IMG/VR virus record: IMGVR_UViG_3300009079_000076
Coordinates: 1 to 31,071 of that record
DNA length: 31,071 nucleotides
DNA from: a virus
Reading direction: 5' to 3' (one strand)
In this document: positions 7,754 through 14,215 of the stretch, piece after piece
Layout: every line of letters starts with the position of its first letter
How positions within the stretch are numbered: the first letter of the stretch is position 1
Translations under genes and position numbers: made by a program
The notes under the pieces: model-generated
The model's input: only the letters and a program-made list of their open reading frames with translations
Database searches by the model: none
Told to the model about the DNA's origin: nothing

Positions 7754-7782
7754 ATTATACTATAAGTAATTGAGAAAGTAAA
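7754..7782 (-). promoter_or_regulatory. sigma-70 type early promoter upstream of the VWA protein
   Basis: TTTACT (7777..7782) and TATAAT (7754..7759) on the minus strand are 17 bases apart, in the gap 7727..7805 between gp46 and the VWA gene. The bases just before the -10 box (TATAG) are shared with the site at 11264. Nothing else is seen in this gap apart from A/T-rich sequence. Confidence 0.82.
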
Positions 7783-10585: not shown

Positions 10586-11167
10586 TTATCCCATAAACAG
10601 TTCAAGGTTTTTGTCTTGCTTCTTCTTGGTTATCTTCTCTTGTTTGCTGAACTCTTTTAGGACACGGTCAGAATCTCTAACCTTATCGATACGACTGCGG
10701 AGTTCTTCGATAAATCCATTATCACCTATGTCTTCTCCAGATGCATCATGCTGAACAATAAACTCCTCAAAGGACGCTTGCTCAATAAACCTCATTTTAA
10801 CATCAAACTGTTTCTTCTCTTTCTGGATACGTCTTATGAAAGCATAATAGCATATCTGAGTAAAGTACGCAAACGCATTAGGATTACCAGTACGAGTGGC
10901 TGTTTCTATATTGTAATTCATGATAGCTTTCAGGCAGTTTTCTACAGCATCCATAACCATTTCTTCCCGATAGGTATATCGAATGAAGTTAGGTTTATGC
11001 GATAGACCTTCAGATATTTTTAAGAAACATGTGGCGATATATTCGGTTACGATGGGGTTTGTTTCGCCCCTTTCCTGCGCCTGCTTGACAGAATTGACGT
11101 AATCGACTACAGACTGCGAGAACAATTTATTGTTCACATAATGAGGCTTGTTGGCAGGTTTAGTCAT
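10586..11167 (-). CDS. 55: late transcription sigma factor gp55
   Basis: This 193-residue protein (T4 gp55: 185) is a minimal sigma factor that directs host RNA polymerase to TATAAATA late promoters. Similarity to T4 gp55 as I remember it includes the YVNNK opening, the EGLSHKPNF and YREEMVMDAVENCLKAIMNY segments (sigma region 2-like helices), NAFAYFTQICYYAFIRRI, and a C-terminal hydrophobic LELFMG, matching the clamp-binding tail expected of gp55 (T4 LDFLYE). The presence of five TATAAATA boxes in this window supports the call. It is the first gene after the promoter at 11200..11228. Confidence 0.92.
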   Translation of the reverse strand: MTKPANKPHYVNNKLFSQSVVDYVNSVKQAQERGETNPIVTEYIATCFLKISEGLSHKPNFIRYTYREEMVMDAVENCLKAIMNYNIETATRTGNPNAFAYFTQICYYAFIRRIQKEKKQFDVKMRFIEQASFEEFIVQHDASGEDIGDNGFIEELRSRIDKVRDSDRVLKEFSKQEKITKKKQDKNLELFMG

Positions 11168-11199: not shown

Positions 11200-11228
11200 A
11201 TTATACTACATTATCGCTCAAAAGTAAA
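11200..11228 (-). promoter_or_regulatory. sigma-70 type early promoter for gp55-gp47-gp46
   Basis: TTTACT (11223..11228) and TATAAT (11200..11205) are 17 bases apart on the minus strand, about 33 bases before the gp55 ATG. The 11168..11325 gap also contains a very A/T-rich stretch (11229..11260) and a second promoter facing the opposite way. Confidence 0.83.
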
Positions 11229-11263
11229 GTATTAATTTAATTTAATTTATTTGAAGAAAAGGC

Positions 11264-11292
11264 TTTACTTTTTGTCATTTTTATAGTATAAT
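11264..11292 (+). promoter_or_regulatory. sigma-70 type promoter facing rightward, antisense to uvsW region
   Basis: On the plus strand TTTACT (11264..11269) and TATAAT (11287..11292) are exactly 17 bases apart, and flanking bases match the leftward promoters (TTTACTTT, TATAGTATAATA). A transcript would begin near 11299 and run antisense through the gene at 11326..11712 and into uvsW. No credible plus-strand gene follows: the first frame with a ribosome-binding-like GGGGGAGG gives only six codons. It may make an antisense RNA or prime replication; both are inference. Confidence 0.72.
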
Positions 11293-11325
11293 ATAAGAGT
11301 TGTTCGGGGGAGGGTGAGTATACCT

Positions 11326-11712
11326 TTAATGTAGTGTCGATTTAGGGTCGATATCAGTTTCCCATTCATCATCATACTCATCATCTGTTTCTGGCGAAGC
11401 CAGATCATCGTCGGGATAGACCTCACGGAGACGCAAGGCAGTAGCGATGTATTTCTCTTTAGTATTTTCGCTGGCTTTGCAAGTAGCGATTACTGTATCT
11501 GCGTTTATGAATACTGTTAATGAATCAGGCTGAACAGTGAACCAAGGAGTCATGAAGATCCTTTGCATCCTATCCTCGTTATAGATGTTCATAAGCAGAG
11601 GGGATTCAACTATGTAGCCATGATCTTCCATACCTCTTATATAGCCAATCACCTCATTCCCATCTATGAGTTTAAAGTGCCTGATATCAACTTCGTCTAT
11701 TTCGAATTTCAA
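11326..11712 (-). CDS. conserved phage protein, possible Sm-like fold
   Basis: This encodes 128 residues. The start is TTG at 11710..11712, overlapping the uvsW stop as TTGA, so it depends on coupling with uvsW. Residues 1-80 look like a small beta-barrel: FKLIDGNEVIGYI, GYIVESPLLM, MTPWFTVQPDSLTVFINADTVIA. The pattern 'strand - GxEVIGxI - strand - PWF - strand' recalls Sm-like proteins that I have seen in marine T4-like phages, but I cannot run a structure comparison. The C-terminal 30 residues are an acidic tail (DDEYDDEWETD). The promoter at 11264 on the opposite strand would produce RNA complementary to this gene. Confidence 0.7.
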   Translation of the reverse strand: MKFEIDEVDIRHFKLIDGNEVIGYIRGMEDHGYIVESPLLMNIYNEDRMQRIFMTPWFTVQPDSLTVFINADTVIATCKASENTKEKYIATALRLREVYPDDDLASPETDDEYDDEWETDIDPKSTLH

Positions 11713-13214
11713 ATTTCTAGCTCATATATTTTGTAATCAAATTTCTCTTTCGAGTATATCTTTATACGTTCTGCAGCGTGATTTAGAGTATAATTCTTAC
11801 GATTTTTATGATGTAAATCATCCGCTATATCGTACAAGTTCGTTTCTCGCCCATCGTCAGATTTTCTTAGCCCACGACCAATAGACTGCAACACTTTAAC
11901 CTGAGACTTTGACGGAGAGGCAAATACAATATTATGTATATTCCTTATATTAACCCCCGTAGAGAAAGTCCCTAGAGAAGCAACCACGATAGCATTCTTT
12001 TCTCTTTCTGTGATTTGCCTTACCATTTCCCTATCATCTACGTCAGTTTGCCCAGATACAAAGAAGATCTTACGATTCTTATGAGCACCCTCTTTAATGA
12101 TATTGTAAAGTGGCTTGCCGTGTTTCTCTACTAGGTTGAATAGAACTAGCGTGTTACCATCTTGGTCTAGTGCTAGGTTCTTTATAAATGTATTGCGTTT
12201 CTCATTACTTACAATGAAATCTATTTCTTCCTGATACTTAGCTTTCTTCATCTGAAAACATACTTCAGCTGGATACTTTAGTAATAGGACATTTATCTTT
12301 AATTCTGATAATGCCCCAGAGTCCATAAGATTCTTTGTATTGGTAACTCGATAAACTGGACCGAAGTGTCCTTCTAGAACCAAACGGTGAGTTTGAGTGC
12401 CGTCAAGAGTACCAGTGGTTCCAATACGGAACTCAGCATCCCTAAGTTTACCCATAATTGTACCAAGTGACTTTGCTTTAAAGTTATGCGCTTCATCTCC
12501 AACTACTGCTCCAAATTGTTCAAACCAAGTTGCAGGCAGTTTATAGATTGACTGCCATGTTGTTATAGTAACTCTCTTATCAGAGCTCTTTTCCTTACCA
12601 GAATAGATCTTATGTATCTCGTCTACGGCATTAAAGTATTCGTCGTATTCGGAATAGTCCGCAAAGTCAGAAGCCATTTGCTCTACCAAAGAAGTGGTAG
12701 GAACTACAATAAGAAAGTTTTTATCTCTATTATGTAGGAAGTATCTCATTATGGCATATATGATAAGAGACTTACCAGATGCGGTTGGAGATAGCAAAAG
12801 AGCATTCTTGTTTTCTAGCCCATGACGGATCGCTGTAAGCTGATAGTCTCTGGGTTTAATCTTATTGCCCCCAGACGTGAGGTTCATACTATTGATAAAG
12901 GAGTTGAAATCTCCCTCGTCAATAGGAACTTCTGTATCAGGTCTACCGTACCAAGCATCTTGCTCTACAAATAGATCGTAATCCCTAGCACCTACAAATT
13001 CTTTTAGGTATTTGAATAGACCTATGGGCAACTCTTTCTTTCTTGAATCATATAACCGTATCTTCCCATCCCACATCTTATTCTTGAACGCAGGCATAAA
13101 CTGATACCCTGGAACAAGGAAGCAAAAGAAATCGCTCAGTTCGTTCTCAATTGAAGGATCTGTTATAACGCTGAGGAATGCGTGGTTCTTTTTCTTTACG
13201 GTTAGTGAATTCAT
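11709..13214 (-). CDS. uvsW: UvsW superfamily 2 DNA/RNA helicase
   Basis: This 501-residue protein (T4 UvsW: about 503) unwinds R-loops and branch-migrates recombination and fork structures. Seen motifs: an N-terminal DNA-binding region with AFKNKMWDGKIRLYD, a Q-like motif PRDYQLTAI (121-129), Walker A SPTASGKS (142-149), a DEAH box at 240-243, motif III TGT (267-269), and in the C-terminal RecA domain motif V-like TFSTGVNIRN and motif VI LQSIGRGLRKS. It starts one base inside the end of uvsY (TAATG) and ends with a four-base overlap to the next gene. In T4 UvsW ends origin-dependent replication late in infection. Confidence 0.95.
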   Translation of the reverse strand: MNSLTVKKKNHAFLSVITDPSIENELSDFFCFLVPGYQFMPAFKNKMWDGKIRLYDSRKKELPIGLFKYLKEFVGARDYDLFVEQDAWYGRPDTEVPIDEGDFNSFINSMNLTSGGNKIKPRDYQLTAIRHGLENKNALLLSPTASGKSLIIYAIMRYFLHNRDKNFLIVVPTTSLVEQMASDFADYSEYDEYFNAVDEIHKIYSGKEKSSDKRVTITTWQSIYKLPATWFEQFGAVVGDEAHNFKAKSLGTIMGKLRDAEFRIGTTGTLDGTQTHRLVLEGHFGPVYRVTNTKNLMDSGALSELKINVLLLKYPAEVCFQMKKAKYQEEIDFIVSNEKRNTFIKNLALDQDGNTLVLFNLVEKHGKPLYNIIKEGAHKNRKIFFVSGQTDVDDREMVRQITEREKNAIVVASLGTFSTGVNIRNIHNIVFASPSKSQVKVLQSIGRGLRKSDDGRETNLYDIADDLHHKNRKNYTLNHAAERIKIYSKEKFDYKIYELEI

Positions 13215-13660
13215 TATGCACCGTTAGTAAATCTGTGCCAGTCTATCATATTCTTGATTGTAGAATGGCGCCATCTGAGATTATTGATTATCTCTTCAAG
13301 GGTTTCTATTATAGCCTGAGCCAGATCGATCTTTGCATTTAGCTTTTGCATGTCTGGGTCAGAACGGTAGAAGTAATCCATATCACCCTTCAAGACTCTC
13401 AACCCATTTGTAGGGTCTGGATCCCAACCAAGTTTACGAACTTGATCAACGTCCATCTTTCCTGAGTAGTATAGCCACTTATTCTTGAACATAACATCTA
13501 GCTGACTCTCGAGATACTTCTTCTCAAGTTTGCTTTTGGTCATCATTTCAAGATATTTTGCGTGTAGGTTTGGGGTAACTCTAGAAGATTCGTCTAGCTT
13601 TAAACGATCTATCTCCGAGTCAGTTTTCCACATGTCCATAATTTCTTCAATATTGTACAT
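13214..13660 (-). CDS. uvsY: UvsY recombination mediator
   Basis: This 148-residue protein (T4 UvsY: 137) loads the recombinase UvsX on ssDNA covered by gp32. Similarity to T4 UvsY is limited but consistent: IDRLKLDESS near the start, KYLEMM, KKYLESQLDVMFKNKWLYYSGKM, a central LKGDMDYFYRSDPDMQKLNAKI, and the C-terminal helix IKNMIDWHRFTNGA. Position directly before uvsW is the same as in T4 and cyanophages and makes the call secure. UvsX itself is not in this window. AAGGTATATT before the ATG is the binding site. Confidence 0.9.
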   Translation of the reverse strand: MYNIEEIMDMWKTDSEIDRLKLDESSRVTPNLHAKYLEMMTKSKLEKKYLESQLDVMFKNKWLYYSGKMDVDQVRKLGWDPDPTNGLRVLKGDMDYFYRSDPDMQKLNAKIDLAQAIIETLEEIINNLRWRHSTIKNMIDWHRFTNGA

Positions 13661-14176: not shown

Positions 14177-14184
14177 TATTTATA
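14177..14184 (-). promoter_or_regulatory. T4-type late promoter
   Basis: A perfect TATAAATA on the minus strand, in the gap 14149..14239 between the major capsid gene and the tail-tube-like gene, 28 bases before the latter's ATG. It lies just past the capsid terminator, so transcription is stopped and re-started here. Confidence 0.85.
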
Positions 14185-14188
14185 AGGC

Positions 14189-14215
14189 AAAAAAAGAGGG
14201 AGCCGAAGCTCCCTC
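14189..14215 (-). terminator. rho-independent terminator after the major capsid gene
   Basis: On the minus strand, an 8-base-pair GC-rich stem GAGGGAGC/GCTCCCTC (196-203 with 208-215 of the 14,000 block) closes a TTCG tetraloop and is followed directly by seven T residues. This is a strong intrinsic terminator 24 bases after the capsid stop codon. Confidence 0.95.

Follow-up and report, generated by a model that had tools for sequence, protein, structure and literature searches.

An early-class promoter conserved at the end of the uvsW operon of marine T4-like phages probably directs antisense transcription into late genes

A sigma-70-type promoter that faces backwards into the uvsY-uvsW-LSm gene cluster was found at the same position in nearly all surveyed members of a family of marine T4-like phages, and comparison with control sequences indicates that it is real and conserved beyond chance. 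On this basis, these phages probably produce early antisense RNA at the uvsW cluster, which would hold down or fence off late genes.

Promoter and gene layout

The window, i.e. the whole stretch of DNA analysed here (31,071 nucleotides), is part of the genome of a marine T4-like phage, for which the closest annotated record is Phage C48C1 (Kyanoviridae) with identical gene order. Its relevant features are as follows.

11264..11292, plus strand: antisense early promoter, -35 TTTACT, 17-base spacer, -10 TATAAT (motif match; kept in relatives)
11200..11228, minus strand: divergent sense early promoter of gp55, TTTACT-17-TATAAT (motif match; paired promoter in relatives)
11231..11253 (approximate), no strand: A/T-rich block between both promoters, upstream of each (sequence)
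11299..11325, plus strand: predicted start (~11299) and G-rich leader GTTGTTCGGGGGAGGGTGAGTATACCT ahead of the antisense overlap (placed from the -10 position)
10586..11167, minus strand: gp55, late sigma factor (PHROG 234, E 1.4e-51)
11326..11712, minus strand: small gene, predicted Sm/LSm-like protein (family profile against PDB 3by7, Pfam Sm_like, predicted structure)
11709..13214, minus strand: uvsW helicase (PHROG 16 and Pfam UvsW_N)
13214..13660, minus strand: uvsY recombination mediator (Pfam UvsY)
14177..14184, minus strand: late-promoter motif TATAAATA, the closest promoter motif upstream of the uvsY-uvsW-LSm cluster

A preliminary description of this DNA had reported the plus-strand site TTTACT-17-TATAAT with its 17-base spacer, and had placed all genes to its right on the minus strand; the site lies exactly where it was reported, and the gene orientation was confirmed in the window. 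The boxes had been called perfect, which holds against the phage's own consensus, whereas TTTACT matches the canonical TTGACA at only four of six positions. Flanking bases shared with the leftward sites were recovered as TATAG/TGTAG before TATAAT, and one of the four leftward sites listed at that time is the gp55 promoter (11228..11200, minus strand), which stands back to back with the plus site. The A/T-rich block described beside the site is present, but lies upstream of the plus promoter and not downstream of it. As had also been noted, no plus-strand open reading frame longer than six codons begins at the start, where the frames are trivial (a 6-codon GTG frame and ATG-TAG).

Exact matches to the early motif within the window numbered one on the plus and four on the minus strand, compared to none for a reversed control pattern; apart from the plus site, no copy of the phage's early promoter in the window points rightward. 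The plus site thus has the recognisable sequence of an early-class promoter and reads against the genes in front of it, as expected of a cis-antisense early promoter. Following a 27-nt leader, the predicted transcript would be complementary to the small gene (11326..11712), uvsW and uvsY in turn. Separately, several sense early leaders of the phage at 3943-7782 (minus strand), e.g. at 7754 and 5591, were found to share a TGTATTGAnTGAG motif after the -10 box, which recurs at other early promoters of a 120-kb relative.

Conservation among relatives

Loci were collected using UvsW queries from the window, Syn9, P-SSM2 and HTVC008M and reduced to 206 non-redundant junctions from IMG/VR and from isolates such as Syn9, S-PM2, P-SSM2 and HTVC008M, in which the region from -40 to +130 of the small gene's stop was surveyed and promoters were scored by hexamer match. 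A sigma-70 antisense promoter was present at the 3' end of the small gene in 193 of 206 junctions (94%), compared to 51 of 1068 other gene ends (4.8%); under a strict score, the values for the same loci were 63% and 0.09%. Real regions carried the promoter in 92% of cases and shuffled regions in 2.7%. The loci are not independent events, but the result was unchanged after coarse clustering, and very coarse clustering of the small proteins still left the promoter in 47 of 50 clusters. The predicted start lies a median of 23 nt past the stop codon of the small gene across the family survey, which puts it near 123698 in Syn9 and near 74897 in S-PM2.

The preliminary description had staked its claim on the presence of the site in close relatives, and it withstood this check: the site is kept in contigs of 99-100% identity, in contigs of 75% identity and across the whole family. 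One divergent relative (L320) has apparently lost it and persists as a phage, and a degenerate -35 box is present in several other misses. A near-identical 120-kb contig contains 17 exact early promoters, of which 16 point leftward and the antisense site is the sole rightward one. When complete relatives were scanned for exact TTGACA-17-TANNAT, the junction site was the only opposite-strand match in Syn9, P-SSM2, S-RIM2, ACG-2014d and S-RSM4, and one of two or three in S-PM2, P-TIM68, S-CAM7 and HTVC008M; looser thresholds added a few further opposite-strand sites. In C48C1, the -35 box at the junction reads TTGACG.

Searches for intergenic DNA similarity among phage records returned A/T-rich chance matches only, and a search of the open-access literature yielded no published mention of an antisense site at the uvsW-LSm/gp55 junction. 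In one locus (L044), the antisense promoter and its leader are duplicated in tandem within the 405-bp intergenic region that separates gp55 from the small gene.

Linkage to the operon end

The junction between the LSm gene and gp55 is an insertion site, which is occupied by different genes in L188, L295, L301, L304, L306, L308, L311 and L321, the inserted genes separating gp55 from the antisense promoter. The antisense promoter remains at the end of the small gene in each of these eight relatives, and seven of them have a separate recognisable gp55 promoter nearby. Three related contigs have instead gained a gene at the operon end, and here the promoter is intergenic after the added gene (recognisable in two, degenerate in one). 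These positions indicate, at the sequence level, that it is the uvsW-LSm operon end, and not gp55, to which the antisense promoter is tied.

The small gene product

A profile of the small-gene family matched PDB 3by7 with an E value of 3e-12, 12 of 19 family members matched Pfam Sm_like, and the predicted structure of the window protein matched 3by7 chains with an rmsd of 1.3-2.1, whereas PDB searches with single LSm proteins gave no match. Profile and structure prediction thus agree on the Sm fold, and the small gene product is predicted to be an Sm/LSm-like protein of the Hfq fold. With such a neighbour, RNA-based control close to the LSm gene appears plausible. The protein is also related to a component of the designed cage TIP60 in the PDB, and the product name "methylamine utilization" given to the small gene in cyanophages looks like a misannotation.

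Early and late promoters around the site

The site divides the promoters of the window by class: every one of the four sense early promoters is located to its left, and every one of the five TATAAATA late motifs to its right. The 120-kb relative has no exact early promoter in the 50 kb to the right of the site. In HTVC008M, however, the uvsY-uvsW region is preceded by a candidate sense early promoter (76441), and late-only expression of the operon is therefore not universal. The major capsid gene gp23 is followed by a strong intrinsic terminator (GAGGGAGC-TTCG-GCTCCCTC plus T7, window 14196-14215, minus strand), which would limit late read-through toward uvsY, so that the late motif at 14184 would restart transcription. 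At the junction itself, an intrinsic terminator was detected in 0 of 197 loci in the sense direction and in 1 of 197 in the antisense direction within 2.1 kb. The backward promoter thus occupies a place where a terminator might be expected.

Leader and transcript features

The leader sequence is conserved within clades. Codon constraint over the overlapped LSm gene was raised in the last ten codons only; most of the gene carries no extra sequence constraint, as would be expected if pairing or transcription itself matters.

Cyanophages contain an extended early-promoter unit, TTGACA-17-TAnAAT-AACxCTGTxxGGGTTxAnGAGA, with one to a few copies per genome, which are located antisense at the LSm gene and in sense orientation before small early genes or tRNA clusters. 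Sites of this unit include Syn9 52741, S-PM2 (LN828717) 153193, S-RSM4 177754, S-RIM2 13290 and ACG-2014d 35263. Since the cyanophage leader is common to sense early promoters, its conservation there is partly a property of the promoter class.

Two candidate features were rejected. A plus-strand peptide was considered because many relatives have an ATG or GTG after the leader, yet the window reads ATG-TAG, and these codons arise because the LSm protein ends in His-stop there. In pelagiphage-like loci (e.g. L265, L257, L266 and HTVC008M, the latter being L089), a short palindrome centred on the start follows directly after the antisense -10 box. Its arms vary but complement each other, and its core is TGT, e.g. 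GGACTATGTAGTCC and AGGGGTGTTCCCCT; it is significant in the pelagiphage clade only. The corresponding 5'-end RNA hairpin was discarded: the arms covary in the pelagiphage clade (mean stem 3.84 compared to 2.83 after arm swap), but only marginally in cyanophages and not in the window clade, and the left arm lies upstream of the expected start.

Proposed function and alternative explanations

We put at about even probability that the promoter directs antisense RNA into the late uvsY-uvsW-LSm operon early in infection, and that this represses the operon and/or fences it in where a terminator would otherwise stand. Host sigma-70 polymerase would recognise the site as one of the phage's own early promoters and, starting at the 3' end of the operon, transcribe backwards, so that soon after infection an RNA would form against the LSm gene, uvsW and perhaps more of the cluster. 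Antisense pairing and/or polymerase collision could thereby keep early levels of the R-loop helicase UvsW and of the Sm-like protein low, while the late module on the right would be fenced from the gp55-47-46 module on the left where a terminator is absent. The opposition would cease when the early promoters close and gp55-dependent late transcription sets in. We infer transcription from the promoter, the extent of the RNA and its repressive or fencing effect from the sequence context, and the timing from the promoter class. An antisense RNA of this kind was one of two readings offered in the preliminary description, and it gained support from the promoter staying with the uvsW-LSm operon despite genes inserted beside it, from the occurrence of late-type promoters only upstream of this operon in the window and from the largely unconstrained overlapped gene. 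It also fits T4, where UvsW is produced late and dissolves origin R-loops (PMC3016281).

The second reading in that description, an R-loop replication origin, fared less well, and we regard it as improbable. Here, a G-rich transcript would stay paired with its template and prime rightward leading-strand synthesis, with UvsW later dissolving the R-loop, and such a role would suit a promoter with no open reading frame downstream. T4 origins use promoter transcripts, and UvsW removes the R-loops (PMC3016281). The antisense leaders of the window clade are indeed richer in G than the gp55 leaders (0.34 compared to 0.16), and at least one GGG run occurs in 79% of antisense leaders in the window clade and in 63% of those in cyanophages, compared to 7-8% of gp55 leaders. 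In the pelagiphage clade, however, G-runs are rare in antisense leaders (14%). No GC-skew extremum was observed at the site in four complete genomes, in which skew is confounded by one-sided gene orientation, and no A/T-rich unwinding element was found downstream: positions +25 to +85 in the window are 63% A+T compared to a genome background of ~60%, and the A/T block upstream of the promoter is unlike the arrangement of T4 oriF/oriG. An origin would furthermore not explain why gene insertion leaves the promoter with the LSm gene. Support for an R-loop origin is thus weaker than for antisense transcription.

About equally improbable is that the antisense promoter mainly regulates gp55, through promoter competition or divergent supercoiling, with the RNA as a by-product. 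The -35 boxes of both promoters are shared or overlapping in most cyanophages, and part of the conservation signal there could therefore reflect competition with gp55. Lineages of the window clade differ in their -35 hexamer (TTTACT, TGTACA, TTTACA, TTGCCA), and the antisense and gp55 promoters of a pair carry the matching version in 62% of cases compared to 18% after shuffling, which suggests that the same polymerase reads both and that both are maintained. However, the promoters of this clade are ~36 bp apart, and the eight relatives with an inserted gene keep the antisense promoter although gp55 has been moved away from it.

Slightly less probable still is a discrete, trans-acting small RNA working with the adjoining Sm-like protein, in spite of this suggestive neighbour and of the leader conservation within clades. 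Neither a defined 3' end nor a conserved fold was found: an antisense terminator occurs at a single junction, and a search for a consistent RNA fold of the transcript among relatives found none. All Rfam matches were sub-threshold. Together with the limited codon constraint, the missing fold and terminator argue against such an RNA, and the cyanophage leader also occurs at a few sense early promoters. Finally, a chance or neutral by-product of A/T-rich, symmetric promoter DNA, for which it could be said that a generic scan found 53 weak promoter-like sites in the window compared to 50.7 in shuffles, is very improbable given the low incidence in shuffled regions and at other gene ends and a complete -35 and -10 of its own that is retained apart from its partner.

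Significance and comparison with known systems

Marine T4-like phages lack MotA and AsiA, and it is not settled how they order early, middle and late expression (PMC2984593). One backward promoter, shared by cyanophages, pelagiphages and uncultured relatives, offers a precise handle on this ordering, and since phages that carry it include ones with laboratory hosts, the question is testable; the site also names the exact place to inspect in existing strand-specific RNA-seq data. More tentatively, and in our view with the odds against it, the family-wide promoter might be a core control of the Kyanoviridae that keeps UvsW and LSm low early, and thereby sets the time of the switch to late replication, and that fences the late module; or else its G-rich transcript might form their main R-loop origin, which UvsW would later dissolve.

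Several known systems resemble parts of this arrangement. The "anti-late" RNA of T4 consists of early transcripts complementary to late genes and is likewise early-class RNA that opposes the late genes of such a phage, although here a single dedicated, positionally conserved promoter without a gene of its own would be responsible. Bidirectional bacterial promoters with shared symmetric elements also exist, and the junction resembles them in its back-to-back or overlapping layout, with many cyanophages sharing the -35 region; in contrast, the window has two complete promoters, and eight relatives keep the antisense promoter away from that of gp55.

CfrI of cyanophage S-PM2, an antisense RNA of ~225 nt at the psbA and homing endonuclease genes, is a precedent for antisense RNA expressed during infection by a lytic T4-like cyanophage (PMC2984593), but belongs to another locus, whereas the junction site is conserved across the Kyanoviridae and its RNA is predicted from sequence. 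T4 oriF/oriG, in which an A/T-rich unwinding element lies downstream of a MotA-type promoter, share with the junction a promoter near uvsY/uvsW, an untranslated leader and UvsW as the R-loop-removing helicase (PMC3016281). At the junction, in contrast, the A/T block lies upstream, and an early-class promoter reads against the direction of the genes.
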